A stretch of 64,000 nt of DNA from Yoonia sp. GPGPB17 (GTDB lineage: Bacteria; Pseudomonadota; Alphaproteobacteria; Rhodobacterales; Rhodobacteraceae), in the NCBI RefSeq assembly GCF_037892195.1, contig NZ_JATACI010000005.1, positions 56,859 to 120,858 on the forward strand. The letters are read 5' to 3'. Below the pieces are notes generated by a model. It saw only the letters and a list, made by a program, of their open reading frames with translations. It was not told the origin of the DNA and did no database searches. Position numbers and translations under genes: made by a program. The number at the start of each line of letters is the position of its first letter. Within the stretch, counting starts at the first letter, position 1. Positions 27,575 to 48,101 of this stretch are shown piece by piece.

Positions 27575-28951
27575 GAAGTCACCTTTTTCATATGGTAGGA
27601 TTTGGGGCGGGTTAGGTTGTGATAGCCAATGGCCGACAATCCGCCGCCGCGCCCGGTGTTTTTGCAGCCAGTCCAACACAGGCCCGGGTCAAGGTAGTCG
27701 GCGCGATTCATAAATACCGTGCCGGTCTCGATTTGGTCGCCAATGCGCATCGCGCGATCAAGATCTTTAGTCCAGAGGCTGGCGGTCAGGCCAAACTCGC
27801 TGTCATTCATTAGTGCGATGGCTTCTTCGTCGGATGAGACTTTCATAATCCCCACTACAGGCCCAAAGCTCTCGTCTCGCATCACGCGCATCTCGTGGGT
27901 CACATCAGTAAGGATCTGCGGCGTCAGATAGGCACCGCCGTCATCCTCGGCGAAGGTCTCGATATGTGCGGTTGCACCATCGGCCACGGCCTCGGCGATC
28001 TGGGCGCGGACCTCTTCGGCAAAGCGCTTATGCGCCATAGGTCCCATTGTCGTGTCTTGGTCCAGCGGATTGCCGAGCTTGTAACCTTTGACGATGGCTA
28101 TGGCCTTTTCCAGGAACGCATCAAACAGGCTTTCATGCACGTAGATCCGCTCGATTCCACAGCAGCACTGGCCCGCGTTGAACATCGCGCCGTCGATCAG
28201 TGTATCGACGGCAGCGTCAAGGTCGGCGTCTTCCATGACATAACCCGGGTCCTTGCCGCCTAACTCTGTGCCCACGCCGGTAAAAGTCGCGGCAGCAGCC
28301 TTTTCCATAGCGACGCCACCGCCGACCGATCCGGTGAAATTGACAAAGTCAAAAGCTTTCTCCGAGATCAAATCGGAGGTGGTAGCGTGATCCAGGAAGA
28401 GGTTTTGGAACACATCTTCAGGCACTCCCGCAGAGTGGAAGGCCTGCGCCATTCGCTCTCCGACAAGGAGAGTTTGTGAGGCGTGTTTCAACACGACGGA
28501 GTTGTTAAGCGATTAGTGCCGGTGCAACCGTGTTGATCGCCGTCATGTAAGGATAGTTCCAAGGTGCGACCACCAGAACGACCCCGTGGGGCACGCGTTT
28601 GATCAAGCGTTTAAACGTGGCGTCCTCGCCTACCTGGATATCCGCGAGGCTTGTCGCCGCAATGTCCGCCATGTGACTGGCGCGCTCGCTAAATCCGCCA
28701 AATTCGCCACCATAGCGCACCGGGCGACCCATCATATGGGCCAACTCGCGCACGATTTCGTCGTTTGATGCGCCAACAGCTGCGACGCCTGCCATGACCA
28801 GATCAACGCGTTCTTTCAATGAGCGCGATGCCCAAGATAACTGCGCCTTGCGGGCTTTGGATACTGCACTTTCAGCTTCCTCTTTGCCGAGGATTGGGCG
28901 GCGGGCGAAAACTGACCCGTCAATAGGCGAGACACATTCTAACATTGTCAT
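27571..28951 (-). pseudogene. Aldehyde dehydrogenase, frameshifted
   Basis: From ATG 28951, overlapping the stop of the glutamine-synthetase-like gene (ATGA), the N-terminal half contains the VVAPWNYPYMTAINT block. The frame stops at GCTTAAC (28504-28510) right after PALIA and resumes one base out of register as NSVVLKHASQTLLVG. Reading GGC in place of TAAC gives PALIAGNSVVLKHA. The C-terminal half has FTGSVGGG, the catalytic glutamate in GTELGGKDP and the cysteine in GQCCCGIERI. Intact length would be about 459 residues. It would oxidise the aldehyde made by the neighbouring alcohol dehydrogenase. Confidence 0.75.
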
Positions 28952-30321
28952 GCTTTTTCTAGACCTCTTGAGATTTCGTAGTCGGTGACCACGCGATTGA
29001 ACTCTTCGATTTCCCATTCGGCGGCGCGGGCGTAATGCATCACGACTTCGTCCCCGAACGCCTCGCGCAGCATCTCAGAAGCCAAGAGCGCCTCTCGTGC
29101 GTCGCGCAACGTGTGTGGAATGTGCTTTTTGTCGTCGTCCGCATAGGCGTCGCCAGCAAAAACCTCGGGCAGCCGCAGCTTCTCTTCGATGCCTTTCAGT
29201 CCGGCTGCCAGCATCGCAGCCTGGGCCAAGTAGGGGTTCATATCCGCGCCCGGAACTCTGCACTCGATGCGCACGGCTTTGCTGCCTTCGCCACATAGGC
29301 GGAAGGCGGCTGTGCGGTTGTCGATTGACCAGACCACTTGAGTCGGTGCGAAGGTCCCCTTGGCAAAGCGTTTGTAGCTGTTCACATAGGGTGCCATGAA
29401 ACTAGTGTAATCGGCCGCATAAGTCATCAGGCCAGCCACGTAGTGGTCCATTAGCTCGGACTTGCCATGAGGCCGGTCTGGGTCAAAAAAGGCGTTCGCG
29501 CCGCCCGACCAAAGCGATTGATGCACGTGGCTGGCGCTGCCGACCCGGTCCTTGTGCCATTTGGGCAAGAAGCTCGCCGCGACACCGTGTTGATGGGCGA
29601 TTTCCTTGACGCCATGCTTAGCCAGTGTGTGGTTGTCCGCACAGGCTAGGGCCTCCGCATACTTGAGGTTCAATTCTTCCTGGCCCGCCTCTGCCTCGCC
29701 CTTGGAGCCTTCGACCGGCAAGCCCATCTTGCGCAGATGGTTGCGGATCGGGCGCATCACATACTCTTCCTTGGTGGTCTGGAAGATGTGATAATCCTCG
29801 TTGTAATTCGAGATCGGTTTGAGAGAATAGCCATTCTGAGCGATCTCGTCGTGGGTGCCTTGGAACAGAAAGAACTCCAGTTCGGTGGCCATAACCGGCG
29901 TCAGTCCTAGGGCCTCGGCGCGGGCGATCTGCTTTTTCAGCATCTCGCGCGGGGAGTGCGGTACAGGTTCGTGCGTGTGGTGGTCCATTACGTCACATAG
30001 GCACATCGCGGTGCCTTCCAACCACGGTACGGGTCGAAGGGTCGACAAGTCGGGCTGCATCACATAGTCACCATAGCCGCCCTGCCAAGAGGTCGACGCA
30101 TAGCCATTGGGAGTCGCCATTTCGAGATCGGTTGCGAGCAAGTAGTTGCAGCAATGGGTCTCGCCATCTGCAATTTCTAGAAAAGCCTCTGCATGGAAGC
30201 GCTTGCCCATCAGGCGGCCCTGCATATCCACGATGCAAGTAAGCACCGTATCAATTTCACCAGAGCCGATCTTGGTTTTTAGGTCTTCGAATTCCACTAG
30301 GCTTACCCCCCAATTTTTCAA
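28948..30321 (-). CDS. Glutamine-synthetase-like gamma-glutamyl ligase
   Basis: A 457-residue member of the GS superfamily, intact. The ATP/metal region is present (MATELEFFLF with two glutamates, AEAGQEELNLKYAEAL, and the HQSLW and RIECRVPGADMNPYLA blocks). It belongs with the ligases that join glutamate to amines (GlnA-like, PuuA or gamma-glutamylethanolamide synthetase types) rather than with ammonia-assimilating GS. A GTG at 30297 with GGGGGG eight bases upstream is an alternative start. It sits between the TRAP genes and ALDH/ADH, suggesting that it activates the imported amine or amino alcohol in the cytoplasm. Confidence 0.8.
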   Translation of the reverse strand: MKNWGVSLVEFEDLKTKIGSGEIDTVLTCIVDMQGRLMGKRFHAEAFLEIADGETHCCNYLLATDLEMATPNGYASTSWQGGYGDYVMQPDLSTLRPVPWLEGTAMCLCDVMDHHTHEPVPHSPREMLKKQIARAEALGLTPVMATELEFFLFQGTHDEIAQNGYSLKPISNYNEDYHIFQTTKEEYVMRPIRNHLRKMGLPVEGSKGEAEAGQEELNLKYAEALACADNHTLAKHGVKEIAHQHGVAASFLPKWHKDRVGSASHVHQSLWSGGANAFFDPDRPHGKSELMDHYVAGLMTYAADYTSFMAPYVNSYKRFAKGTFAPTQVVWSIDNRTAAFRLCGEGSKAVRIECRVPGADMNPYLAQAAMLAAGLKGIEEKLRLPEVFAGDAYADDDKKHIPHTLRDAREALLASEMLREAFGDEVVMHYARAAEWEIEEFNRVVTDYEISRGLEKA

Positions 30322-30369
30322 AAGACGCGCGCTCCGATGATGATCGGAGCGCGCGCCAAGTATTTAGCT

Positions 30370-31404
30370 TTAGCCGTAGCGGTAAGGCCGTCCGGCCTTT
30401 GCCATGTCGGCGTTGTATTTGCGGAAGATATCTACGACCTTGGCCTGTGTTGGGCCCTCGGCTGCGATTTCGTCCCAGAAGGCCACTGCTGCATTCTCGA
30501 CCTGCGCCCATTCCTCATCCGGGATCGAGGTCAGTTCCATCTTGGTGCCGTTGACACGAAGGTTGGCTTCGCCGCCCCAGTACCACCACTGACGGTAGTA
30601 GTGCGACTGGTCGCAACACACGCGGAACAGAGTTTGCAGATCTTCCGGCAGCTCGTTCCAGCGATCCATATTGGCGAAGAAGGAGCCAGCCCATGCACCG
30701 GAGATATTGTTGGTTAGGAAGTAGTTTGTAACGTCTGCCCAGCCAACTGTGTAATCTTCAGTGATACCGGACCATGCGATGCCGTCCAGCTCGCCAGTTT
30801 GCATAGCAACTTCGATATCTTCCCAAGGCAGGGATACAGGAACCACGCCAAACTGGCTCAGAAAACGACCAGCGGTTGGGAAGGTAAAGACACGCTTGCC
30901 ATTCAGGTCCGCCAAGGAGCGGATCGGGTCCTTTGTCGCGAAGTGGCAGGGGTCCCAGGAACCCGCAGAGATGTGCTTGACACCAACAGCGCTATACTGT
31001 TCGTCCCAGATTTCATTCAAACCATATTGGTTGAAGAGCACGGGTACGTCGAGCGAATAGCGCGAGGCGAAGGGGAAATAGCCACCGAACACGGTCACAT
31101 CTGTAGGCGATGCCATCGAGTCATCGTCCGATTGCACCGCGTCAATGGTGCCACGCTGCATAGCTCGGAACAGTTCCCCTGTGGGAACTAGCTGATCGGC
31201 GTAAAACAGCTCGATCTGCATGCGGTCACCTGCAATCTTGTTGAACATCTCGATAGCAGGGTCGATCACATGGGCGGCGAGTGCCGGGCCCGCATAGGTT
31301 TGCATCCGCCATTGGATAGTGCTTTGTGCGATGGCTGGTGTTGCCAGCGGCGCAGCCGCCGCACCCATCGCGGCGGTGGTTAGAAACTTACGTCTTGATG
31401 TCAT
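30370..31404 (-). CDS. dctP: TRAP transporter substrate-binding protein (DctP type)
   Basis: The start at 31404 has GGAGG six bases upstream. The N-terminus MTSRRKFLTTAAMGAAAAPL carries a twin-arginine signal, cleaved near AIAQ, so the protein is exported folded. The mature 320 residues have the DctP fold blocks (YADQLVPTGELFRAMQRGTI, LNGKRVFTFPTAGRFLSQFG). It would capture a small organic solute in the periplasm for DctQM, encoded directly upstream. The substrate is not specified by sequence; the neighbours suggest an amine or amino-alcohol-related compound, although TRAP ligands are most often acids. Confidence 0.85.
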   Translation of the reverse strand: MTSRRKFLTTAAMGAAAAPLATPAIAQSTIQWRMQTYAGPALAAHVIDPAIEMFNKIAGDRMQIELFYADQLVPTGELFRAMQRGTIDAVQSDDDSMASPTDVTVFGGYFPFASRYSLDVPVLFNQYGLNEIWDEQYSAVGVKHISAGSWDPCHFATKDPIRSLADLNGKRVFTFPTAGRFLSQFGVVPVSLPWEDIEVAMQTGELDGIAWSGITEDYTVGWADVTNYFLTNNISGAWAGSFFANMDRWNELPEDLQTLFRVCCDQSHYYRQWWYWGGEANLRVNGTKMELTSIPDEEWAQVENAAVAFWDEIAAEGPTQAKVVDIFRKYNADMAKAGRPYRYG

Positions 31405-31467
31405 ATTGACCTCCAATTGTTGTGTGCCCTTTGGGGCGGGTGATTTGGTACCGTTTTGGTATTCTCG

Positions 31468-32787
31468 TTATTTTCCGTAGACATAGTTGGGCAGCCACAG
31501 CGCTAGTTCTGGGAAGACCATGATTATCGTAAGCGCCAAGACCATTACGCCGACGAAAGGTATGATTGAGCGGTAGATATCGCGCAGCGTGACCTCAGGC
31601 GGGGCCATAGCGCGCATCAGGAAGAGGTTATAACCGAAGGGCGGCGTCATATATGCGATCTGGGTAGTGATCGTATATAGCACCCCGTACCAGATGAGAT
31701 CGAACCCAAGTGCTCCGACCAGTGGCACATAAAGCGGCGCTACAATGACAAGCATCGCCGTGTCATCCAAGAATGTCCCCATCAAGATGAAGCTGAGCTG
31801 CATCAAGATGAGGATCATCCAGGGAGAAAGCCCAAGCTGATCGGTGAAGAGATTGTCGATTGCCGACACAGCACCCAGGCCGTCAAACACAGCCCCGAAG
31901 CCCAAAGCGGCCAGAATGATCCACATGAACATGCAAGAGATACCCAGTGTTTGCTTGGTGCAGGTGTGAAACACCGCCCAGGTCATGCGCCGCTTGAGGA
32001 TGGACGCTGCCAGCGCGGTCAGAGCGCCGATGGCCGAGCTTTCGACAAGCGAGGTCCAACCGTTGACAAAGGGTACCATCATCGCGGCAAAAATCGCCAG
32101 CGGCAACACGCCCGACCAGAGCAAGCGGCGCTTCTCCTGCGGCGTTACCTCCTCAAGATCGGTTGCGACAGGCCCTAGTGCCGGGTTCAGTCGGCACCGG
32201 ATCCAAATGTATGCAATGAACATCGCTGCCATCATCAGACCCGGGACGATCCCGGCGAGCCAAAGCTGCCCCACCGGTTGGCGTGCGATCATCGCATAAA
32301 GCACCAGCACCACCGATGGTGGCACAAGAATACCAAGGCTCGACCCCGCCTGGATCACACCTGTGACCATCAGCTTGTCATAGCCACGCCGTAATAGCTC
32401 GGGAAGCGCAATCGTCGCACCGATGGCCATGCCCGCTACGCTTAGCCCATTCATAGCGGAAACCAGTACCATGAGACCGATGGTTCCCATTGCCAGCCCA
32501 CCCGAGACGTTGCCGAACCACACATGAAACATTCGGTAGAGGTCGTCGGCCAGGCGGCTCTCGGACAATACGTAGCCCATGAAGATGAACATGGGCAGGG
32601 TCAGAAGCGGGTACCACTTCATCAGCTTCATTGCCGCGGAAAACGGGATATCCTGACCGCCGGTCCCCCACAGCGCCAGCGCTGCAATTGCGGCTATCGC
32701 ACCAATAGCTCCAAAGACCCGCTGTCCGGTGAACAGCATGAGCATCATGGACGCAAACATAAAAAGAGCGATGTATTCCTGGCTCAT
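31468..32787 (-). CDS. dctM: TRAP transporter large permease (DctM)
   Basis: A 439-residue protein with about 12 hydrophobic helices and conserved DctM segments (GMAIGATIALPELLRRGYDK, PPFGYNLFLMRAMAPPEVTL). It forms the ion-coupled translocation channel together with DctQ. Its ATG overlaps the DctQ stop by four bases, and DctP follows 64 bases downstream. Confidence 0.9.
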   Translation of the reverse strand: MSQEYIALFMFASMMLMLFTGQRVFGAIGAIAAIAALALWGTGGQDIPFSAAMKLMKWYPLLTLPMFIFMGYVLSESRLADDLYRMFHVWFGNVSGGLAMGTIGLMVLVSAMNGLSVAGMAIGATIALPELLRRGYDKLMVTGVIQAGSSLGILVPPSVVLVLYAMIARQPVGQLWLAGIVPGLMMAAMFIAYIWIRCRLNPALGPVATDLEEVTPQEKRRLLWSGVLPLAIFAAMMVPFVNGWTSLVESSAIGALTALAASILKRRMTWAVFHTCTKQTLGISCMFMWIILAALGFGAVFDGLGAVSAIDNLFTDQLGLSPWMILILMQLSFILMGTFLDDTAMLVIVAPLYVPLVGALGFDLIWYGVLYTITTQIAYMTPPFGYNLFLMRAMAPPEVTLRDIYRSIIPFVGVMVLALTIIMVFPELALWLPNYVYGK

Positions 32788-33365
32788 ATTTTTGGCTCCG
32801 GGAGGTCGTGACCCAAAGCGCGCGCCAGGTCTTTGATAAGTTCAGATACAGCCTGAAGTAGCATCAGGAAGAGGCCAGCGATCATGATCGCCTTGATTGG
32901 CCAAATATATGGGCGCCAGGCGGTTGAGGAGCGCTCCATGCGACCAATGTCTTCCGTGCCTGTCATCAGGCCAAGGAAATATTCGACCGGCGCGGTGCCC
33001 CAATAGCCGAGTGAATATGCGGTCGACCCCAATGCGCCGTAGAGCAGCACACCTATGTAGAAGATCAGAAAGAGTACCGTGATCACGTCGATGGCTGACT
33101 TGCGGCGCAGCGACCAAGCGCCATAGAAAAGGTCCATTCGCACATTGGACCCTACTAGGATCGAATAGGGACCGCCCAACATATAGTAGGCAACCATAGC
33201 AAATTGCGCCATCTCCAGCGTCCAGAGCGAGGGAACAAAAAAGGTCTTGGAGATTGAAGACCAAAGCAAAATCGCCATGAGCACAAAGACCCCGTACATC
33301 ACCACCAAACCAATGGCGTGATTCATGCGATCCACTGCGCGCGAATAACCGAGCAAAAATCTCAT
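32784..33365 (-). CDS. dctQ: TRAP transporter small permease (DctQ)
   Basis: A 193-residue protein with four membrane helices and the DctQ pattern LFYGAWSLRRKSAIDVITVL between helices 2 and 3. Its start overlaps the end of the amidohydrolase gene and its stop overlaps the DctM start. It completes the transporter with DctM and DctP. Confidence 0.85.
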   Translation of the reverse strand: MRFLLGYSRAVDRMNHAIGLVVMYGVFVLMAILLWSSISKTFFVPSLWTLEMAQFAMVAYYMLGGPYSILVGSNVRMDLFYGAWSLRRKSAIDVITVLFLIFYIGVLLYGALGSTAYSLGYWGTAPVEYFLGLMTGTEDIGRMERSSTAWRPYIWPIKAIMIAGLFLMLLQAVSELIKDLARALGHDLPEPKI

Positions 33366-34129
33366 GCTGCCCTCGTCTTATCCAAATGCGCAATAGCTTC
33401 ACGCAGCGTCGACGCTAAATGGCACCCCATATTCGCCGCCTGATCATCAGTTCTGATCAGGTCGTTGCGCACCTCGATCATGGTCGAATGAAGACGGTTG
33501 GAATCGGCATGTCGACATATGCTGTAGGTAACGCCATCTTCCTTGCCGTAAGGCGCATTCAAGGCGACGTTGTAACGGTCATTGATCCGCTCAACGCGAC
33601 ATGCCGCTTCGCTCAAAGTAGGATTTCCGTGATACAAAAATCCGATCTCAACCTCCCGGGGGCGGCCGTAGTAGACAGGTGTAAAAGAATGCAGCGTTAT
33701 TACAGCAACAGGGCTGTCGACACGCTCAACCTGATTTTCGATGAGCCCTTCAACTGCCGAATGAAACAAATCATGAATGAGGCGGCGACGGGTTTTACGC
33801 TCATGTTCCGTCAGTTGCTCATTGCCCGGAAAAGCAATTTCTTCGCTCTTTGCGGGAATACAGTCTTTTGCCGAAAAGGGGCGATTGCAGTCATAGAGAG
33901 AACGCGACGTGCCGCAGGAAACAAGTGGCGCGTCCAATTCTGTTGACAGACTCTGAGCCATTCTAAGTGCACCAATATCCCAGACAGCGTGGGATGATGG
34001 ATCAATCTTTCCAATGCCTGGAAAGTCGAAATCATCCGGGATGTAAGGTGAAGCATGCTCACAAATCAGAACGATCGGGGCTTGCCCGTTCGTACGTTGA
34101 AGCTGGATGGGTGTCCAAGGCCGTGACAT
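33362..34129 (-). CDS. N-formylglutamate amidohydrolase-family protein
   Basis: A 255-residue metal-dependent amidohydrolase. It has ICEHASPYIPDDF (metal and substrate residues) near residue 22, HAVWDIGALRMAQ, and TLHSFTPVYYGRPR. The family removes N-formyl groups from glutamate or cleaves related glutamyl compounds. As first gene of an operon that also encodes a gamma-glutamyl ligase, it could cleave the gamma-glutamyl amide at the end of the pathway and recycle glutamate; this role is inference. Two palindromes for the divergent RpiR regulator lie just upstream. Confidence 0.8.
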   Translation of the reverse strand: MSRPWTPIQLQRTNGQAPIVLICEHASPYIPDDFDFPGIGKIDPSSHAVWDIGALRMAQSLSTELDAPLVSCGTSRSLYDCNRPFSAKDCIPAKSEEIAFPGNEQLTEHERKTRRRLIHDLFHSAVEGLIENQVERVDSPVAVITLHSFTPVYYGRPREVEIGFLYHGNPTLSEAACRVERINDRYNVALNAPYGKEDGVTYSICRHADSNRLHSTMIEVRNDLIRTDDQAANMGCHLASTLREAIAHLDKTRAA

Positions 34130-34256: not shown

Positions 34257-35102
34257 ATGCTGGTAAGAGACCTTCTCGAACAACATAAAGGCGACTTCAC
34301 AGCCGCCGAGCGCCGGGTCATTCCATTTTTGCGCGACCCAGCTCTATTGATTGAACTTCAATCAATTACGAAGTTGGCAAACGCGGCGGAAGTCTCTACC
34401 CCAACAATCATCCGCCTAGCGCGCAAGCTTGGATATGATGGGTACCCAGACCTGCACGGAGCTGTGCGGCTCGAACTAGCTGAACGCATTAAGCAGCCGC
34501 TTGCAAAGCTCAAGGCGCAGCCTGAGCACCCGAAGGACGATCATATTGTGAACCAATTCGCGCATGTTGTCGTCGAAAATGTTAATAACACAATCAATCA
34601 GATTGATTTCCCATTGTTCGATCAGGCGGCTGAACTGCTGGCGGAACCGTCTCGACGCGTTCAACTGATCGGTGGACGGATCACTTGGCCTATAGCGCAT
34701 TACTTCGCTAATCACCTGCATATTATCCGGCCAAACGTTACTCTTCTGAATCCGTCACAGAATGCTTGGCCGCAATCCGTTCTGGATATGGATGAAAGTT
34801 CGGTGCTCATCATTTTCGATATCCGCAGATATGAGAAAAAGATCGCACGATTGACCCGACTGGCCCAGAAACGGAAAGCCAAGATCATGTTGTTTACCGA
34901 TCAGTGGGGATCACCCATCGAGAATGACGCAGACATCTGTTTCCGCGCGCCCGTCCAAGCGCCTTCAAGCTGGGACTCCATGGTAGCGCTGAATTTTTTG
35001 GTTGAATCTATGGTCGCCCAAATACAGAGATCCGCTCCGGATCAAACCGGAAAGCGCATCGCTGAGATGGAGAGCTTGATTGGCGACTCAGGGATTTTTT
35101 GA
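34257..35102 (+). CDS. MurR/RpiR-family transcriptional regulator
   Basis: A 281-residue protein with the N-terminal RpiR helix-turn-helix (ITKLANAAEVSTPTIIRLARKLGYDGYPDL) and a C-terminal SIS domain (about residues 125-260). The SIS domain normally binds phosphosugars, but relatives regulate amine and amino-acid catabolism. It is divergent from the amidohydrolase/TRAP/gamma-glutamyl operon and is its likely controller. It ends 20 bases before the convergent bhcD-like gene. Confidence 0.85.
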   Translation: MLVRDLLEQHKGDFTAAERRVIPFLRDPALLIELQSITKLANAAEVSTPTIIRLARKLGYDGYPDLHGAVRLELAERIKQPLAKLKAQPEHPKDDHIVNQFAHVVVENVNNTINQIDFPLFDQAAELLAEPSRRVQLIGGRITWPIAHYFANHLHIIRPNVTLLNPSQNAWPQSVLDMDESSVLIIFDIRRYEKKIARLTRLAQKRKAKIMLFTDQWGSPIENDADICFRAPVQAPSSWDSMVALNFLVESMVAQIQRSAPDQTGKRIAEMESLIGDSGIF

Positions 35103-35122: not shown

Positions 35123-36054
35123 TCAAAACGCTACCTCGGTTGCTAAGCCCTGCGCAACGGCCAGCTCGACGACACGCGAAGCTACGGCCAAATCCTGCAA
35201 CCCAACGCCGGTGCCGTCAAAGAGGGTAATCTCACTATCCGACCTGCGACCTGGGTGTTTACCGTTTATGACCTGCCCTATCTCGGTGATGTCCGTGGCT
35301 TCAACTATGCCTTGCGTGATGGCATGCTGCGCTTCGCCAATTGTCACGGACTGCGTGATTTCATCGGCAAATACACTAGAATTTCCGAACACTGCCGCAG
35401 CAACTTCTTGCTTTCCCTTGGTATCGGTGCCCATACACGCGATATGCGTTCCGGCTGAGACATGATTTGCCATGAGTGATGGTGCGAAGGAGGATGTGAT
35501 GGTGATAATCGCATCTGCCTTTTGCATGTCTTCAATTGCAACCGCTTCAAACTCGAGCCCCGCGTCGCTCGCGACCTTGGACAAGCGTTCCAGCTTTTCA
35601 GGGCTGCGGTTCCAACCGATCACTTTCTCGAAGTCGCGCTGCTCTAAGGCCGCCCGAAGCTGAAACACCGATTGATGCCCCGCGCCTACCATGCCTAGAA
35701 TTTTGGCGTCCTGACGCGCGAGATACTTGATCGAAACAGCAGATGCCGCGGCTGTTCGCAGCGCGGTCAGCAGATTGCCGCCCACAATGCCATGGAGTTT
35801 CCCAGTGTTTGGATCAAAAAGGCAAATGGAGGATTGGTGGTTGATTTCCTGCCGCCGTTCCATGTTGTGCGGCCAGTATCCTCCTGCCTTAACCCCTAGA
35901 ACATTGCTTAGGCACGATCAAATCCTCCCTTAAAACCATAAAGAGCATCTTCATGCCCGATGGCTTCGCGGATGACCGGAAAGTTATAGGCGACCCGCAT
36001 AGACATGCTGGCAAACACAGCTTCCACCGCGTCAAAGGCTAAAGCTCTGGTCAT
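35123..36054 (-). pseudogene. bhcD: Iminosuccinate reductase (BhcD-like, ornithine cyclodeaminase family), frameshifted
   Basis: From ATG 36054 the protein reads MTRALAFDAVEAVFASMSMR and then AYNFPVIREAIGHEDALYGF. The frame breaks at GCTTAGGC on the plus strand (35906-35913). Reading GCCGGC instead gives FDRAGNVLGVKAGGYWPHN and a 309-residue protein. The Rossmann motif GMVGAGHQSVFQLRAAL and the GTHIACMGTDTKGKQEV block fit iminosuccinate reductases of the beta-hydroxyaspartate cycle, which reduce iminosuccinate to aspartate with NADH. It follows bhcC after a terminator-like hairpin. Other OCD-family activities cannot be excluded. Confidence 0.75.
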
Positions 36055-36112
36055 GAGGCTAAGCAATCAGATTTTCGGGAACGATGAACATTTAGCAGAT
36101 CCTTGTAATAAA

Positions 36113-36135
36113 GCGGGGCGGCACTGCCACCCCGC
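36113..36135 (-). terminator. Terminator-like hairpin between bhcC and bhcD
   Basis: On the minus strand GCGGGGTGGCAGTGCCGCCCCGC folds into a strong stem (one mismatched pair in the arm) and is followed by TTTATTA. It starts 39 bases after the bhcC stop. It should reduce or stop transcription into the bhcD-like gene, which may therefore be expressed at a lower level or from its own promoter. Confidence 0.65.
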
Positions 36136-36173
36136 AAGTTAGTCCGGTTACGATCTGGGAGGAGGATCCGGAC

Positions 36174-37344
36174 TTAGTACGCTTTGCCGCGCGCGGAGAC
36201 CGGCCAAACGCATTCGACCTTGCCGCCGCGCACGCCGACATACCAGTCATGTACGTTGGCGGTCGGGTCGCAGTGTCCCGGCACCAGCTTAAGCCTTTCG
36301 TTGACTTTCAGAACACCATCTGGATCAGCGATCACCCCATGCTCGTCGGAGCATTTGATGTATTCGACATCCTTCCGGCCATATATGAACGGCAGACCGC
36401 TATCGACGGATTGCACTTTCAGACCCGCGTCACAGATCGCCTTGTCGGCTTTGGCGTGGCTCATCACCGTAGTCAGCAAGAAGAAGGCGTTCTGCCATTC
36501 GCCCTGGTCGATCCGTTTGCCGTCTTTGTCTTGGATACGACCATAGTCAGCGTCCATGAACGCATATGACCCGCATTGCAGTTCATTGTAGACACCCGAG
36601 TTACTCTCGAAATAGTAAGAGCCGGTGCCGCCACCGGAAACCAATTCAGGGTCGAGGCCAACGGATTTCAGGCCTAAGCAACTGCATCTTCGACCATGCC
36701 AATAGCGATATCCAATTTGGCCTTGCGGTCCTCAAAGCTGTCCATGTGTTGCATTGCGCCCTGATAGGCTTGGATGCCAGCAAACTTTAGGCCGTCCGCC
36801 GCGTCAATGGCACGTGCAATGGCGACAACATCCTGGGTGGTCGTCACGCCGCAGCGGCCTGCCCCACAGTCGATCTCGACAAAACACTCTAAAGCGGTAC
36901 CATGCTTTTGCGCCGCGGCCGATAGATCTGCCACGTTTTCAAGGTCGTCCACGCAGACGATCGTGCGCGCACCGAACTTGGGCAGTTGCGCCAAGCGGTT
37001 TAGCTTTCCAGGGTCGCGTACCTGGTTGGAAACCAGAACGTCTTTGATCCCCGCGCGGGCGAAAACCTCTGCCTCAGAGACTTTCTGGCAGCACACACCA
37101 ATCGCACCGCCAAGTTCTTGCTGCAGCTTAAGCACATCCACCGATTTGTGCATCTTGCCGTGTGCGCGGTGGCGCATGCCATGGGCCTTGGCATAGTCGC
37201 CCATCTTCTTGACATTTGCTTCCAGCGCGTCCAAATCCAGCACAAGGGCTGGCGTCTGAATATCTGCCTCGTCCATTCCGGGTAGGGCTTAGGCACATCA
37301 TAGCCGACTTCGAGGCCTTCGAGGTGTGAGTGATCAAGCATCAT
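36174..37344 (-). pseudogene. bhcC: beta-Hydroxyaspartate aldolase (BhcC, D-threonine-aldolase family), two frameshifts
   Basis: The start is ATG 37344, overlapping the bhcB stop (TAATG). Two breaks occur: at 37287-37294 (restored reading YDVPALPGMDEADIQTP) and at 36672-36679 (restored AVAGLKSVGLDPELVSGGG). Both are GCYTARGC octamers and both disappear if read as GCCGGC. The repaired protein has 388 residues, about the length I recall for Paracoccus BhcC. It shows the alanine-racemase-like PLP barrel with HGKMHKSVDV (PLP lysine region), the GSYAFMDADY block and the C-terminal metal-binding PGHCDPTANVHDW. It would condense glycine with glyoxylate to beta-hydroxyaspartate. Confidence 0.8.
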
Positions 37345-38300
37345 TAAACTCCTTTGGTCCAAGGCAGCTTGTCTAGATCGACATTGCCACCAGTTATGAT
37401 TATCCCGACGCGCTTGCCCGCGAACCGTTCCTTGTTTTTCAGAAGTGTTGCCAAAGGCACGGCACTAGACGGCTCCATCACCACGCGCAAATGCTTCCAT
37501 GTCAGCTTCATAGCTTCGATGATTTCCTCTTCCGAGGCGGTCAGAATGTCGCTCACATATTTGGAAACGAAATGCCAAGTGCGTTCCTTCAAAGGCACCA
37601 GCAGTCCGTCGGCGATGGTCTTTGGAGCATCGTCAGCAATGATGTGCCCCTCTTTGAAACTGCGATACGCGTCATCAGCTTGTTCAGGCTCTGCTGCGAT
37701 GATCTGCGTTTCCGGCGCAAGCGTCGAGAGCGTCAGGCAGGTACCAGAGACCATCCCGCCGCCGCCAATCGGTGCCATCACGACATCCAGACCGTCCGTC
37801 TGCTCCATGAACTCCTTGGAACAGGTGCCCTGACCAGCAATCACGCGCGGATCGTTGTAAGGATGCACGAAATCACCGCCTGTCGCGGCTTGGATCTCTG
37901 CGAACGTTGCCTCGCGAGACGTTGTCGATGGCTCACATTCCGTGATCACCCCGCCATAACGCCGGACAGTATCCTTTTTCGCCTGTGGCGCCGTCTTTGG
38001 CATAACCACATTGCAGGGAATGCCTCGCTTCATCGCTGCATATGACAGGCACGACGCGTGGTTTCCGGATGAATGGGTCGCGACACCTTTGACCGCTTGT
38101 GCTTCATCCAGGCCAAAGACCGCATTGCAGGCACCGCGAACCTTGAACGCGCCGGGCTCCTGCATGTTTTCGCATTTGAATAGCAGGTTGCAACCGGTCA
38201 AATCGTTCAGATAATCCGATGTGCGCACAGGCGTGCGACGAATAATCGGTTTGATCCGTTCATGCGCGGCAAGCATATCTTCATAGGTTGGGATATTCAT
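37344..38300 (-). CDS. bhcB: beta-Hydroxyaspartate dehydratase (BhcB, threonine/serine dehydratase family)
   Basis: From the ATG at 38300 (MNIPTYEDMLAAHERI), with AAGGAA upstream, the protein has 318 residues and is intact. The PLP lysine lies in EPGAFKVRGACNA, the substrate loop is HSSGNHASCL and the phosphate-binding glycines are GGGGM (residues 178-182). Several stretches match BhcB of the beta-hydroxyaspartate cycle as I remember it, which removes water from beta-hydroxyaspartate to give iminosuccinate. The gene starts 10 bases after the DadA-like gene and overlaps bhcC. The frame open to 38429 is not needed. A serine racemase/dehydratase role is the main alternative. Confidence 0.8.
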   Translation of the reverse strand: MNIPTYEDMLAAHERIKPIIRRTPVRTSDYLNDLTGCNLLFKCENMQEPGAFKVRGACNAVFGLDEAQAVKGVATHSSGNHASCLSYAAMKRGIPCNVVMPKTAPQAKKDTVRRYGGVITECEPSTTSREATFAEIQAATGGDFVHPYNDPRVIAGQGTCSKEFMEQTDGLDVVMAPIGGGGMVSGTCLTLSTLAPETQIIAAEPEQADDAYRSFKEGHIIADDAPKTIADGLLVPLKERTWHFVSKYVSDILTASEEEIIEAMKLTWKHLRVVMEPSSAVPLATLLKNKERFAGKRVGIIITGGNVDLDKLPWTKGV

Positions 38301-38310
38301 TGGCAATTCC

Positions 38311-39545
38311 TTATGCAGCTTGCTTTTGGGCCATGTCGGCGACCATGCAGGCCGTAGCCGCCGACAGCGTCCAACCCAGATGGCCGTGTCCCGTGTTGAA
38401 AAGAACGCGCGGGTCTTTGCCTGGACCAACGCGCGGCAGCATATTCGGCATCATTGGACGCAGACCTGACCATGGCACAACGCTGCGCGTGCTCATCTCG
38501 GGGAAGTGGCGGTTGCACCACTTAACCAGGGGTTCAATCCGCGCTTGTCGAATGTCGCGGTTGTAACCAGACAATTCAGCGGTGCCTGCCACCCGGAAAC
38601 GGTCTTTACCCAAGCGGCTCGTCACGATTTTTGCCTTGTCGTCCAGTAGGCTGACCCAAGGCGCGGCGTTCTGGGCCTTTTCATCGTTCAGGTTGACCGT
38701 GATCGAGTAGCCCTTAACCGGATAGATGTTCACGTTTTCGCCTAAACGACGAGCCAGCTTTTTAGACATCACGCCTGCGCAGATCACGACCCGGTCAAAG
38801 ATCGCGCTATCTTTCGCGCCCTCGACCCCAAAATCCACCCGCATACCTGCATCAGTCGATGCAACATCAAGAATATCCGTTTCGAACTGCAGCGTCGCGC
38901 CTTGTGCTTCTGCAGCGTCCGCCAACCCAGTGGTGAACTTGTGAATGTCACCCGTGAAATCGGACTCAGTATAGAAGCTTAAGCATAGCCCACACCTTTC
39001 AGTGTCGGTTCGATTGCGGAGATCTCTTCCGTCGTCACCGGAAGGCGCGTCAATCCACCCTTGGCCAGCAGTTCCGAGACCCGCGCCGCTGCCTCAAATT
39101 CTGCCTTTGTTTCGTAGAAATGCAGAATTCCGCGCTTTTCAAGATTAAAGTCTATGCCTTCATCCGCCGCCATGCCGAGCAACGCGTCGCGTGCGGCCAA
39201 GGCAAGTTCGACGGTGCGAATAGTGTTCTTCTCGTAGCTCGGGATGGCCCGCAGGAAAGACGTCATCCAACTGATCTTGTGAAAGCTGGGGTACGGGCCA
39301 ACCAGCAATGGCGCGTCTTTGGTCAACATCCACCGGATGCCCTTGCTTACATTGGCCCAAGAATTCCACACCTCCGCATTGGACGCCGAAATCTGGCCGC
39401 CATTGCCTAGACTGGTTTCCATCGCGGCATGCCTGTTACGCTCGAACAGGGTCACATCAAACCCACGTTTAAGTAACTGATAGGCCGTGGTAACGCCGGT
39501 CACTCCGGCCCCAATCACAGCGACAGTTCCTGGTCTTGCAATCAT
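38311..39545 (-). pseudogene. dadA: DadA-like FAD-dependent D-amino acid/glycine oxidoreductase, frameshifted
   Basis: The start MIARPGTVAVIGAGVTGVTT carries the FAD-binding GAGVTG motif and LFERNRHAAMETSLGNGGQI. The frame breaks at GCTTAAGC (38977-38984); reading GCTGGC restores VGYAGFYTESD followed by FTGDIHKFTTGLADAAE, total 410 residues, usual for DadA. The C-terminus has GLRPMMPNMLPRVGPGKDP and the FAD-contact NTGHGHLGWTLS. It is the first gene behind a glycine riboswitch and is followed by bhcB and bhcC. Glycine, oxidised to glyoxylate plus ammonia, is therefore the likely substrate rather than D-alanine. This is inferred from context. Confidence 0.75.
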
Positions 39546-39581
39546 GGCAACTCCTAAACCGCTGAATGCGGCAGTTAAGTT

Positions 39582-39745
39582 GCCCCCTCTGTCATTGGCC
39601 TGAGAGATTCACGAGCTTGCCCGTTTACACCATCGGCAGAAGGCAGAGCCCTCTTTTTCAGAGAATTGTACTTTGCGCGGTCCGTTTGCCTGAGAGTTTC
39701 CGGGGCGGTTGCTCCTTCGGCGACGAATCAAATCGTCTCTCCCGC
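39582..39745 (-). promoter_or_regulatory. Tandem glycine riboswitch
   Basis: The minus strand carries both glycine aptamer signatures in order. Aptamer 1 starts GCGGGAGAG, then GCCGAAGGAGCAA, and closes with CTCTCAGGCAAA. Aptamer 2 has CTGCCGATGGTGTAA, then TCTCTCAGGCCAATGACAGA. The linker is short, as in cooperative tandem riboswitches. Downstream, CAACT (39577-39581) can pair with AGTTG just before the dadA start, enclosing the AGGAG ribosome-binding site, so translational control is plausible. It responds to glycine and should raise expression of the glycine-consuming operon. Confidence 0.9.
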
Positions 39746-39751
39746 AAGCCC

Positions 39752-39780
39752 TTTATACCGCTGTGTAGGAAAATTTACAA
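39752..39780 (-). promoter_or_regulatory. Near-consensus sigma-70 promoter of the glycine operon
   Basis: On the minus strand TTGTAA (39780-39775) and TATAAA (39757-39752) are separated by exactly 17 bases. Transcription would start near 39745, at the first base of the riboswitch. The match suggests strong constitutive initiation, with regulation left to the RNA. Confidence 0.75.
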
Positions 39781-41321: not shown

Positions 41322-42356
41322 ATGAGGACAGACCCCTTTCCGTCCCTTCCACCGGGATTTTCCAGACGCGATGTGATCGCGCTGATGGCAGATATTGGCC
41401 GCGACATCGGGCTTGGCCCGCGGCTCACCGACATTCTCACACGATTGATCGGATGCACCGAGGCTGACGCCTGGATCGACCCTGGCAAGGAGCCGATTTT
41501 CTACGGGCGCCAGGAGAGCTTTGCCCAGAAGCTCGGGATCTCGACCCGCCATCTCCGCACACTTGAGAAGACCCTCAGAGCGACACGCAGTGTCCAGTGG
41601 GCCACCTTCCGCGATGAACTGGCGCGTCTGTCACCCGACGATCTTCTGTCCGACGACGTTCAGGAGATGATCGCCGAGCGTGAAACATGGCCCCGTACCG
41701 ATACGCTTCTGAGTATGAGCGAAGCCCGGCTTTCTCAGCATGTCGACGCGGCAACAGACCTGTGCACAAGGCTGACAGTTTGGATCGAAAACCATGCTGA
41801 TTCTTCTTGTGAACCGGAAGATACCTTCCGGTCCTTTATACAAGAGGACATTCAGATGAATATCTCTGAAAAATGTAACGCCAATGTCGATAAACGGAGC
41901 GCGGGCAAGCCCGCGCACTCAAATTATTCTGCTCCGGGTCCTACCGGACCCGTCGATTGCAAAGAAAAAGAGCTTGAGACGGAAACCTTGGCGCTTCAAG
42001 AGCTTTTCTCAGGACAATACGGACTGGATCATGCGGTCACCTTAGCGAGCGAGGACTTCAAATTCGAGATGCAGGTCCGAAGTGGCGACCGACCGGAATA
42101 CGCCTTTGTCGAAGCGGCGAATGCTAGGGTCGCGCCACTCGGGATTAATATTACAGCCTGGGCCGCTGCTTGCGACCGTATGGGGCGCGTCCCGGCCGCT
42201 CTTTGTGTCATGCTTCTTGATGCGAACCGGGATCACCCGACAGCTCCCGTCATGAACCCCGGCGGGGCCTTGCGCGGGATGATCAAGGCGCATAATCGCG
42301 GCAAACTTAATCTGATCGGCAGCCTGATCGGCCTGCACCGGAGACGCGGACTGTGA
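41322..42356 (+). CDS. repC: Plasmid replication protein RepC
   Basis: A 344-residue RepC-like initiator with GAGAGGAC upstream of the ATG. The N-terminal domain has SRRDVIALMADIGRDIGLG and a winged-helix segment SFAQKLGISTRHLRTLEKTL. The C-terminal domain ends NPGGALRGMIKAHNRGKLNL, a RepC hallmark. At 344 residues it is shorter than the roughly 400 usual for the family; a stretch after the HTH (near residue 95) may be missing. No repA/repB partition genes accompany it, so it resembles a solo repC module. RepC proteins of this order act in cis at an origin inside their own gene. Confidence 0.75.
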   Translation: MRTDPFPSLPPGFSRRDVIALMADIGRDIGLGPRLTDILTRLIGCTEADAWIDPGKEPIFYGRQESFAQKLGISTRHLRTLEKTLRATRSVQWATFRDELARLSPDDLLSDDVQEMIAERETWPRTDTLLSMSEARLSQHVDAATDLCTRLTVWIENHADSSCEPEDTFRSFIQEDIQMNISEKCNANVDKRSAGKPAHSNYSAPGPTGPVDCKEKELETETLALQELFSGQYGLDHAVTLASEDFKFEMQVRSGDRPEYAFVEAANARVAPLGINITAWAAACDRMGRVPAALCVMLLDANRDHPTAPVMNPGGALRGMIKAHNRGKLNLIGSLIGLHRRRGL

Positions 42357-42646
42357 GGCAAAGTTCTCTGATTGCCGGTGATTTTCTGCGGTTCTTGGGT
42401 CTCTTTCGGGGCGCTCGTGACCATCCATGCGCGTCAACGTCCGCGAGATCGACCACAGAGCCTCCTTATTTGGCGGTTTTTGGGAGAAAACCTAGCACGG
42501 ACTTGCCAGATCTTCTACTTCGGTGTCGAGCCATGTCGAATACGCCGTGGCGTTTCCAACTCGTTACGCGTAGCGGTTCCATTGGCGTTTGGACGCGCCT
42601 GTTGGATAGGTTCTATGGGCCTGCGTGGGCCAGTCTCACGGGAGGC

Positions 42647-43704
42647 TTAAGGTTTACCGCGCTTTTCAAACCAGCTTTGGCAGAACTTGATGAAATGCGG
42701 CTCGGGTGCTTGGGCTCAATCTCTTCCTTGCCGCACCACGCTCGCCATTCCTGCTCAATCATGCGCACATCCCAGCCCGGCGCTGCCGTCCGCGCGTCAT
42801 GATAGGCTTCTGGGTCAAGTTTGCCCTCATAAACCTCAATCACCGGAACCGGCACTGTGCCTTTGCTGCGAAACACCACGATGTTGCCGTCCAATGACGG
42901 GTCATAGTCTGGGAAATAGTCATGCTGTTCGGCATCTGCGATAATGTTGCTGACTAAACGCTTGAACTCTTTTGGCGACGATTGAGATCCGCATTTCAGG
43001 CGCAGCTTCTCCAAGCCAATGCGCCATTCGGCCGACTTCCCGCAATGCTTGCGCGCAATCTCATACATCCGACGTTCAAGCGGCTTTTTCAGTCGGAAAT
43101 AGTCCCGGCTGATCGTCAGAACCTCTTTCGCCTGAATCGCATTGAAGACCCAATCCGACAGCGTGACCTGCACCTCCTGCAGCACCCCGTCGACATCTCT
43201 GCGCACCTTTTTCGCGCTTTCAACCAAGCCAAAGACATTCCATTGACGCTCGGCACCCGTATGGATGTTGGTTTTGATCGTGGTCCCGCGCAAACGCTCA
43301 AGAGCTTCTTCAGCGCGGTTATAGGCGCTGCCCCCGGCTTACTTCCCCGTCGCGACAATGTAGTCACTCACTTTGAAGCTCACCGTCTTGGACACGTCCC
43401 GCCCCTCATTCAGGGCAGCGATCAGTTGCGAGATGCAGAAGATCAGGATGCCAGGATCAAAGACCGTCGCCATTCCCTTCGCAGAGGGCGAAATCTCGAT
43501 GTAGTTCTCGCCATTATCATAGCGGCGCGTCTGATGATCCGGCTTCTTTGAGATCGAGAAGACCGGATGCTTCATACCGGCCATATCGCTCTTGGGCGCG
43601 GCATCGAAGATGTCTCAAATGAAGAGATGCGGTTGCTGAAACCGATCCGGCAGCAACGGATTGGCCAGCCGCTTCACTGGCTTATCACCCACCTCTGTCA
43701 CCAT
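42647..43704 (-). pseudogene. RPA-family plasmid replication initiator, broken
   Basis: From ATG 43704 (MVTEVGDKPVKRLANPLLPD) one frame carries the whole RPA-type initiator, but with TGA at 43615-43617 (HLFI-stop-DIFDAAPK, where cysteine fits) and TAA at 43339-43341 (VATGK-stop-AGGSAYN). A further single-base loss near 42705 shifts the last 15 residues (HFIKFCQSWFEKRGKP). Conserved blocks PVFSISKKPD, RLRGTTIKTNIHTGAERQW and RRMYEIARKHCG are clear. Eight iterons lie directly upstream. With three lesions it is most likely dead, unless these are sequencing errors. Confidence 0.85.
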
Positions 43705-45812: not shown

Positions 45813-46085
45813 TCAAAACTGGGCTTTTGCGTTGGGTAGCGAAGCGCTTACGTCCGACTGGCTGACTTCCGACATGGGCTTGTGGATCTTCCAGGTCTCT
45901 CGCTCGCCGTCATTCCGATGCACTGTCACAACGGTTTCAACCGGTGGGCAATCCGGCTCGTGACACGTGAGTTCCGCTACAGACACCAGATCGTTTTCGC
46001 CCAGGCCTAGTTGCTTACTTACCCAGGCTTTGATTTCGGCAGCACGCCCTGACGACCGTTCGCGCGGTGCAAACATGTTCTTCAT
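45813..46085 (-). CDS. Small protein in the Zur/CobW locus
   Basis: From the ATG at 46085, which overlaps the stop of the WD40 gene (ATGA), the product is 90 residues. The segment LTCHEPDCPPVETVV contains two cysteines that could bind metal. No named family recognised. It is translationally coupled to the WD40 gene and so likely belongs to the same Zur-controlled transcript. Confidence 0.6.
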   Translation of the reverse strand: MKNMFAPRERSSGRAAEIKAWVSKQLGLGENDLVSVAELTCHEPDCPPVETVVTVHRNDGERETWKIHKPMSEVSQSDVSASLPNAKAQF

Positions 46086-47137
46086 TTTTCGCTCCCGCCC
46101 AATCGTACCCAAAGAATGCGGCCAGACTCCTCGCCGATGAACAGCCACGCGTCCGACGTAATGGCAAGCGCCGCTATAGGAGAGCCGCTGGATCCCTTCA
46201 CCACAAAGTCCTCTGCGTCTTCAGATGCCCGACCGGCCAAAACTGCCCCGTCGGCAAAGCCTGCGAGGAGCGCATCATGGCCAAGCATACCTGTCACAGC
46301 AGTGCAGACTTGCTTTCCACCATAACAACAGGTTGCGGGCGAGCGGCCCATCGGACCATCCTTGCCATCAAACGGCCAACAGATGGCTTCGTCGGCCCCA
46401 GACGTCGCCAGAAAAGGTGCGCTGCCCATCCATATGAAGTTTTTCACCTTTGCTGGATAACCAGACATTCGCATGTCTGCCTTATCGCGCAAACGCCAAC
46501 CGTGCAGTGCGTTTTCGTTCATTGACGTCACGACGCATTTTCCATCGGGACTAAAAGTTACCGCCCCATGGGATCCCTTCCATTTGAGATTGGTCGATTC
46601 CCAGCGACGACTGCCGCGTTCCCAAATCGTAGCACCGCCGTAGTGACCAACGGCCAAGCGACGCCCATTTGCGTCGAAGGCCAGTCCCCCGACGGTACTT
46701 GGATGTTCGAATTTAAGCGGTTGCGTCTCGCCTTCGCTCCACACCGTAGCGGTCTTTCCGGAAGAGCAGGCGAACAGTTTTGGTCCTGCCGCCACGCAGT
46801 CTACCCAGCGGCTCCCAAAACTCGCGATCTCTTCGACTGTGCCGTCCAAAGAGGTTCTTAGAAATCGTCCATCGTCGCCGCCAGTATAGATGGAGTTCGT
46901 TTCTGGATCGGCCGTGATGCAAAGAACTGCACCGTGATGGGCTTCAAGCATCTTGGGCGGGCTGTCTGGTTCGAAGATGAGGATTGTGCCGTCACCCAGT
47001 CCAGCCGCGATGGACGAGCCCACGACAACCGAGCTTGTTACAGGCGCGCCAGTGTCCAGGCTCAGGCCTTCTCGCTCCAATTGCGTGGAAGCGAAGCAAG
47101 CCCGCCGAGGGTTGGTTCGAACGGCTTCGGCTGTCAT
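46082..47137 (-). CDS. WD40-repeat protein
   Basis: About 351 residues of WD40-type blades (VLCITADPETNSIYTGGDDG, GGLAFDANGRRLAVGHYGG, AVTFSPDGKCVVTSMNENAL and others), forming a single seven-bladed propeller. No signal peptide, so cytoplasmic. The ATG at 47137 overlaps the cobW stop (ATGA); an ATG four codons upstream is also possible. WD40 proteins are unusual in bacteria. Its place between a CobW GTPase and a small cysteine protein under Zur suggests a scaffold for metal delivery, which is inference. Confidence 0.75.
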   Translation of the reverse strand: MTAEAVRTNPRRACFASTQLEREGLSLDTGAPVTSSVVVGSSIAAGLGDGTILIFEPDSPPKMLEAHHGAVLCITADPETNSIYTGGDDGRFLRTSLDGTVEEIASFGSRWVDCVAAGPKLFACSSGKTATVWSEGETQPLKFEHPSTVGGLAFDANGRRLAVGHYGGATIWERGSRRWESTNLKWKGSHGAVTFSPDGKCVVTSMNENALHGWRLRDKADMRMSGYPAKVKNFIWMGSAPFLATSGADEAICWPFDGKDGPMGRSPATCCYGGKQVCTAVTGMLGHDALLAGFADGAVLAGRASEDAEDFVVKGSSGSPIAALAITSDAWLFIGEESGRILWVRLGGSEK

Positions 47138-48101
47138 GCCGCTCGACATGCGTTGAAGCCGTCCTCAAGACCCATGGTGTCGAGGTCACGACCGATAAAG
47201 ACGATACGCGATTGGCGCGCCCCTGCAGGCCAGGACCCCATGGGTGAGCCATCCATCAGCATATGGACGCCTTGGAAGACGAAACGATCATCCTCGCCCT
47301 TGAAGTCGAGGATACCCTTCGACCGCAGAATGTCTTGCCCGCGGGTCTGCAAGAGTTGCCCGAACCACGTCTGGAACTTTTCGAGATCGAGGGGAACATC
47401 GGATGTCAGTGATACGCTTTTCACGTCATCATCGTGCTCATGGTCATGGTCCGATGTAAGGAAGTCAGGCTCGACCTCCAATACGCGATCAAGGCTGAAG
47501 GCGTTCAGTCCAATCACCTCTTCTAGATCCGCGCCGCAATGTTCGGTGCGGATAATCTTGGCGTATGGGTTGATTTTGCGGATGCGGTCTTCAACGCGGC
47601 CCAGACCATCTGCTTCAACAAGATCGGTTTTGTTCAAAAGCACGATATCCGCAAAGGCGATCTGTTCCTCAGCTTCGTGGTGCTCCCCCAACTGATCGTT
47701 GAGGTGGACGGCGTCTGCAACGGTGACGATAGCATCGAGCTTTGTCCGGTCCGCTACGTCCTGATCCACAAAAAGGTTTGCGCAACGGGCGCAGGATCAG
47801 CCAGTCCAGTCGTCTCCACGATGATCGCATCGAGTTTGTCAGCGCGTTTCATCAGCCCGCCCAGAATACGGATGAGATCGCCACGCACGGTGCAGCAGAT
47901 GCACCCATTGTTCATCTCAAATACTTCTTCGTCGGCATCCACGACGAGATCATTATCGATGCCCTCTTCGCCGAACTCATTCACAATGACAGCGTATTTC
48001 TTGCCGTGACGCTCGGTCAGAATGCGGTTCAGAAGCGTGGTTTTCCCGGCCCCAAGAAAGCCAGTGAGGACGGTGACGGGAACCTGAGCAGTTTGTTCCA
48101 T
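47134..48101 (-). pseudogene. CobW/COG0523-family metallochaperone GTPase, frameshifted
   Basis: From ATG 48101 ([20 protein letters not shown]) the Walker [10 protein letters not shown] and the metal-binding GCICC motif are present. The frame breaks near 47765 at a T-run (CCTTTTTGTG), where one missing T gives [19 protein letters not shown]. The rest has NKTDL and a histidine/aspartate-rich stretch SDHDHEHDDD typical of zinc-linked COG0523 proteins. Intact length would be about 322 residues. It follows zur by a short gap, and would use GTP to deliver zinc to client proteins under shortage. Confidence 0.8.

Follow-up and report, generated by a model that had tools for sequence, protein, structure and literature searches.

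The 64,000-nucleotide stretch of DNA analysed here, referred to as the window, covers positions 56859-120858 of contig C5 (120,858 bases) in the 4.21-Mb, five-contig genome of Yoonia sp. GPGPB17. On its minus strand lies a tandem glycine riboswitch followed by a dadA-like gene, bhcB, bhcC, a hairpin and bhcD, in that order. C5 has the replication genes of a plasmid (RP-C C-terminal domain, 41322-42356; RPA, 42613-43293). Judging from sequence comparisons, we are fairly confident that this plasmid-borne and probably intact dadA-bhcB-bhcC-bhcD operon is a linear glycine-assimilation module under the control of its riboswitch.

In the proposed route, DadA, a flavin adenine dinucleotide (FAD) enzyme, would oxidize one glycine to glyoxylate and ammonia, with the electrons probably passing to the respiratory chain. 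BhcC would join the glyoxylate to a second glycine to give beta-hydroxyaspartate, BhcB would dehydrate this to iminosuccinate, and BhcD would reduce iminosuccinate to aspartate, the last three reactions being those of the known beta-hydroxyaspartate cycle. The net result would be the conversion of two glycines to one aspartate and ammonia with no loss of CO2. High glycine would expose the dadA ribosome-binding site, so that only an excess of glycine would switch the module on.

The riboswitch and the operon behind it

Both aptamers of the riboswitch, which spans 39754-39579 on the minus strand, exceed the RF00504 gathering score of 32, the first (39668-39754) with 58.4 bits and the second (39579-39671; G000:C5:96437-96529) with 44.7 bits; the tandem riboswitch proposed in a preliminary description of this DNA is thus borne out by the Rfam model. 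The near-consensus promoter placed in front of it was not recovered, as a promoter scan finds no minus-strand site ahead of the riboswitch. A TTGTAA-17-TATAAA arrangement is visible there by eye, and its -10 element touches the first aptamer. The presumed ribosome-binding site of dadA lies within a minus-strand hairpin at 39584-39546 (-21.8 kcal/mol; z -2.91 relative to shuffled sequences) that shares 6 nt with the 3' end of the second aptamer match and may serve as the expression platform. For the leader as a whole, folding is barely stronger than in shuffles (z -1.59). In the leaders of a chromosomal dadA of this genome and of Ruegeria marina dadA, the sequence leading up to the start codon is again part of a hairpin (z -2.76 and -2.04), and these hairpins suggest that dadA is under translational control. 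Because the role of the operon would be degradative, the riboswitch is presumably a glycine-ON switch. Two further tandem glycine riboswitches are present on the chromosome, one leading the NF009074 dadA just mentioned and the other gcvT.

The genes are closely coupled, as first described: dadA (38311-39545) and bhcB (37344-38300) are 10 nt apart, and the start of bhcC (36174-37344) overlaps the bhcB stop. BhcB scores over the NF045641 equivalog cut-off (572.2 against 550 bits) in an unbroken frame, while bhcC and bhcD (35123-36091) are interrupted as assembled and their scores are those of pieces. The BhcC pieces score 364.9 and 330.9 bits with NF045642 (positions 22-220 and 232-387; cut-off 690 for one frame), and the C-terminal 246 amino acids of BhcD alone give 404.2 bits with NF045643 (positions 78-321; cut-off 500 for one frame). 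In each case the respective Bhc model is the best match. The nearest solved structure to the BhcC piece at 36674-37276 is the D-3-hydroxyaspartate aldolase 6qkb (329.3 bits; best D-threonine aldolase, 166), and that to the BhcD piece is the iminosuccinate reductase 6rqa (297.7 bits; alanine dehydrogenase, 135.6). The 21 PDB matches of BhcB are named as racemases and dehydratases/deaminases, and none as a Bhc enzyme. By profile and PDB scores, then, BhcC and BhcB do not group with D-threonine aldolases and serine dehydratases, and we take them to be the 3-hydroxy-D-aspartate aldolase and beta-hydroxyaspartate dehydratase, with BhcD the iminosuccinate reductase.

As the preliminary description had it, bhcD stands behind a terminator-like hairpin, at 36135-36113 on the minus strand, with 10 pairs (9 GC) and a T-rich tail, TTTATTAC. 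The terminator scan gave five such sites against 6.2 in shuffles, so the site count itself is not above chance. Comparable elements occur in only seven of 77 other bhcC-bhcD gaps (by our own criterion, zero-length gaps counted), and a conserved bhcC-bhcD terminator was therefore rejected.

The two DadA pieces match positions 3-181 and 203-406 of NF009074 (the PRK12409 family), named 'D-amino acid dehydrogenase', with 281 and 314.8 bits (cut-off 494 for one frame). We used the R. marina protein for structural comparison. Its nearest solved chains by sequence, 7cyx (68 bits) and 4ysh (51.8 bits), are glycine oxidases about 20% identical to it, and a profile search of the PDB also returns glycine oxidases. 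A fold search with its AlphaFold2 model (predicted local distance difference test, pLDDT, 78.8; predicted template modelling score, pTM, 0.80) ranks 4ysh first. This likeness to glycine oxidase is compatible with glycine as the substrate but falls short of proof. Glycine dehydrogenase is the most likely function of the window-type DadA, as the riboswitch linkage and the gene neighbourhood suggest.

A second set of bhc genes lies on contig C2, the chromosome, at ~3.2544-3.2598 Mb, where bhcR, bhcA, bhcB, bhcC and bhcD are side by side as five whole genes over their NCBIfam cut-offs (bhcR, 396.7 bits; cut-off 350). Plasmid and chromosomal proteins are 74% (BhcB), 75 and 85% (BhcC pieces) and 66% (BhcD) identical. 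The absence of BhcA, a central point of the preliminary description, thus holds for the operon and not for the cell: with bhcA beside an intact bhcBCD on C2, the idea of an organism without BhcA falls, and that of a separate glycine module stands. The window operon differs from a cycle cluster in having no bhcA and no adjacent IclR-type bhcR, its neighbour being an RpiR-type gene.

Recurrence in other genomes

A set of 120 genomes of the family was searched with RF00504 and NF009074, and riboswitch matches were found in 98 of them; matches were taken to about E 3e-8, a level at which weaker aptamers would be missed. All 14 NF009074 genes over the cut-off, in 14 genomes, have a same-strand riboswitch 15-161 nt upstream, compared to none of the 21 matches below it (Fisher p 4e-10, ignoring relatedness). 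Not included in these counts are the two broken dadA genes of the present genome (four pieces), which are both riboswitch-led. A search of 394 family genomes with R. marina DadA gives matches in 41 at E <= 1e-150; at all 30 loci taken from these 41 the aptamer motif CTCTCAGG[CT] precedes dadA, and at five of them bhcB follows it, one being truncated. The C-terminal piece of the window DadA matches no other genome among the 394 of the family at E <= 1e-90, and the protein is therefore without a close relative in that sample. Within the genus it matches 46 of 56 genomes at E <= 1e-70, and the motif is present at 29 of 30 loci taken from 48 matches (28 of 29 without the window itself), in two copies. 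Two motif copies also precede dadA at the six plasmid loci examined outside the Rhodobacterales, among 65 records with a DadA match.

Relatives of BhcB were collected by a scan of GTDB, of which the best 80 of 569 were taken. BhcA is matched by tblastn at 75 of these 80 loci. Three of the other five, L026 (Nioella ostreopsis), L046 (Roseobacter MED193) and L050 (R. marina), have the order riboswitch-dadA-bhcB-bhcC-bhcD without bhcA, and the remaining two (L069 and L083) have no dadA match. Together with L167, L171 and L172 there are thus six relatives with this arrangement, each gene matched as one tblastn stretch; operons of this kind with whole genes do occur in other genomes. The riboswitch was recognized by Rfam in five of them and by the motif only in L172. 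All six have benzoate genes and an M20 amidohydrolase gene (only its end in L171), and a tripartite ATP-independent periplasmic (TRAP) transporter is in view in five. BenA and BenB from L046 and BenC and BenD from L167 score over NCBIfam cut-offs. The amidohydrolase is over the cut-off of the broad TIGR01891 model only, and we therefore call it a putative hippurate hydrolase. Hippurate breakdown yields glycine, and benzoate genes, an M20 amidohydrolase and a TRAP transporter are the set expected for this compound. At the ten hippurate-type DadA loci examined with their flanks (L026, L046, L050 and L167-L173), benzoate genes are found at nine and the amidohydrolase at nine. L174 has two motif copies and dadA-bhcBCD with no benzoate genes, and its dadA is broken near the N-terminus.

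In the DadA tree the ten hippurate-type proteins, seven of them with bhcB, form one group (support 100/99) with the window DadA outside it; the other 44 rows come from loci where bhcB was not found. The tree leaves out ten loci missed by the open reading frame (ORF) filter, including L140, L177 and L206, which have bhcB. Thus dadA probably came together with bhcBCD on at least two occasions, and a single origin of all dadA-bhc operons was set aside, albeit on a placement made unsure by the very long window branch, which the program warns may exclude the window wrongly. Resolution in the BhcB tree is weak; there the L174 entry, which represents the L140 gene again, is mislabelled as bhcA-linked, and the truncated L170 bhcB was dropped by length.

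The linear, glycine-controlled route from glycine to aspartate put forward in the preliminary description is supported by the riboswitch at 14 of 14 NF009074 genes and by the six operons in benzoate/amidohydrolase clusters. It remains the best reading, although in a cell that does possess BhcA.

Frame breaks and alternative readings

The operon contains the riboswitch and four genes first described, but frame breaks in three of these had been overlooked. As assembled there are five, at 38975 in dadA, 37285 and 36665 in bhcC, and 36057 and 35903 in bhcD, and only bhcB is unbroken. They divide dadA into a 39545-38979 ORF and a 38925-38311 ORF that differ in frame, interrupt bhcC near its N-terminus and near 36670, and leave bhcD with a long ORF at 35863-35123. 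The strings at the five breaks are GCTTAAGC, GCTTAGGC, GCTTAGC or GCCTAAGC. One might take the window copy for a decaying pseudo-operon with real breaks, the chromosomal bhcRABCD being the only working set: three of four genes are affected, the redundant chromosomal cluster is whole, and the same plasmid has transposase genes. The same kind of break is found in chromosomal genes, however. In L018, an 18-kb chromosomal stretch, five genes (by eye acyl-CoA synthetase-like, acyl-CoA dehydrogenase, DUF4173-like, AraC-like and DeoC) are split that are single proteins in genus relatives, for example at L018 positions 16618, 15172 and 2640; a GCTTAAGC-like string is clear at three of the five, similar in the AraC-like gene and unclear in the DUF4173-like gene. 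The riboswitch-led chromosomal dadA is likewise split at GCTTAAGC. Over 174 kb of this assembly GCCGGC is the most depleted palindromic hexamer, with two sites where 79 kb of relatives predict 39.6 (ratio for the next palindrome, 0.31). An alignment test was uninformative, in that of 13 aligned GCCGGC sites in relatives none is identical in this genome and none has a gap, we think as a result of alignments ending at breaks. Given the similar breaks in chromosomal genes, the GCTTAAGC-like strings at most of them and the near absence of GCCGGC, the likeliest cause is that base calling fails systematically at a single motif, which may be methylated. The protein between the breaks is also well conserved, with BhcB over its cut-off and the BhcC pieces close to the chromosomal copy. 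Real decay is therefore weakened as an explanation by a pattern seen throughout the assembly, and we regard it as unlikely.

In a second alternative, the main substrate of DadA could be D-alanine or some other D-amino or imino acid, with glycine only a signal and BhcBCD receiving glyoxylate from other sources such as glycolate. The NCBIfam family name fits this, as does one relative encoded close to an alanine racemase gene in a Burkholderia plasmid. Against it, the riboswitch tracks the NF009074 subfamily over the cut-off but is absent from matches that score lower, and glycine rather than D-alanine is what the amidohydrolase/benzoate neighbourhood would supply. We therefore give this reading a minor share of the probability. 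The pathway could also run in reverse or from external D-3-hydroxyaspartate; BhcC would then split this compound into glyoxylate and glycine, and the glycine so formed would act on the riboswitch. Aldolases are reversible and a TRAP transporter is nearby, yet BhcB and BhcD could make aspartate from hydroxyaspartate without any need for BhcC, and the neighbourhood of the relatives indicates an input of glycine; we consider such a direction very improbable.

Several observations weigh against a glycine-assimilation module. The DadA pieces score only 42.3 and 73.3 bits with ThiO (TIGR02352, cut-off 250.8), and even their sum is far below the cut-off. None of the listed PDB matches of R. marina DadA is an E. 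coli-type DadA, which makes 'closest to glycine oxidase' a weak statement. The window DadA is divergent, being 57-58% identical to R. marina DadA with a branch of 1.35. Three of the ten hippurate-type loci have no bhcBCD and one has a truncated bhcB, in contrast to six with all three genes, so dadA does not need the module. These loci have one motif copy where the window has two, and the flanks of the window operon gave no match to amidohydrolase or benzoate genes. In one genus genome, G055 (L177/L206), dadA-bhcBCD is present and no riboswitch was found.

The neighbouring window genes gave no link to a glycine source. A TRAP transporter with N-formylglutamate-amidohydrolase-like and glutamine-synthetase-like genes at 28948-34129 may be linked to the operon, and a MurR/RpiR-type regulator gene (34257-35102, plus strand; PF01418, PF01380) is convergent to it, with no link shown. 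Adjoining iron alcohol dehydrogenase and aldehyde dehydrogenase ORFs at 26765-28494 each cover part of their family model, possibly owing to breaks of the same kind. A gene for a WD40-repeat protein is at 46082-47149. Elsewhere, the dadA-bhcBCD genes of L206 (4533-13234) adjoin an L-serine ammonia-lyase gene (TIGR00720, over the cut-off); two ORFs there look hydantoinase-like and DUF917-like by eye, with no NCBIfam match at 1e-60. BhcB matches also occur on a 32-kb Phaeobacter gallaeciensis plasmid and a 30-kb Roseovarius mucosus plasmid.

Relationship to known systems

We lean towards the view that NF009074 proteins are widespread and overlooked respiratory glycine dehydrogenases under glycine riboswitches. 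In the Rhodobacterales they would have been joined at least twice to bhcBCD, on the window plasmid and in hippurate/benzoate clusters, creating a naturally occurring, glycine-gated pathway in which two glycines yield aspartate without CO2 release and without the glycine cleavage system. If so, bacteria own a carbon-conserving, glycine-switched means of glycine assimilation beside the CO2-releasing glycine cleavage system, and parts of the beta-hydroxyaspartate cycle have a second role. It would also provide a testable substrate for proteins whose current annotation is D-amino acid dehydrogenase, explain a possible use of the glycine half of hippurate, and offer a compact module for metabolic engineering.

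A search of open-licence literature, which leaves most subscription papers outside, gave nothing joining the glycine riboswitch to hydroxyaspartate, D-amino acid dehydrogenase or hippurate, and nothing joining glycine with bhcB and dadA. In the available part of PMC12452182 the targets of glycine riboswitches are gcv, glyA and sdhA, and the sole mention of COG0665 is thiO under thiamine pyrophosphate; PMC3766115, as far as available, gives glycine and serine genes and transporters. The window resembles these RF00504 regulons in having tandem aptamers before a glycine-handling operon, and departs from those described there in its target, dadA-bhcBCD. ThiO shares the FAD superfamily with DadA and differs in riboswitch and gene context.

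Another parallel is a cluster on the Yoonia vestfoldensis conjugative plasmid pSMR4r-2 (L129, 6274-14123), with a TRAP transporter, RidA, an FAD oxidoreductase, RidA, bhcB and bhcC. Like the window it has bhcBC without bhcA and an FAD enzyme in front, but that enzyme is 28% identical to R. marina DadA, and the stretch has RidA genes, no bhcD and no riboswitch motif that we could find. The bhcRABCD cluster of Paracoccus denitrificans is also among the closest known systems; PMC11323563 describes the beta-hydroxyaspartate cycle, its control by BhcR and the two known glyoxylate routes. The window operon has BhcB, BhcC, BhcD and their order in common with that cluster, whereas it lacks bhcA and bhcR, has a DadA-like protein and a glycine riboswitch in front, and would form a linear route from glycine where the cycle starts from glyoxylate.

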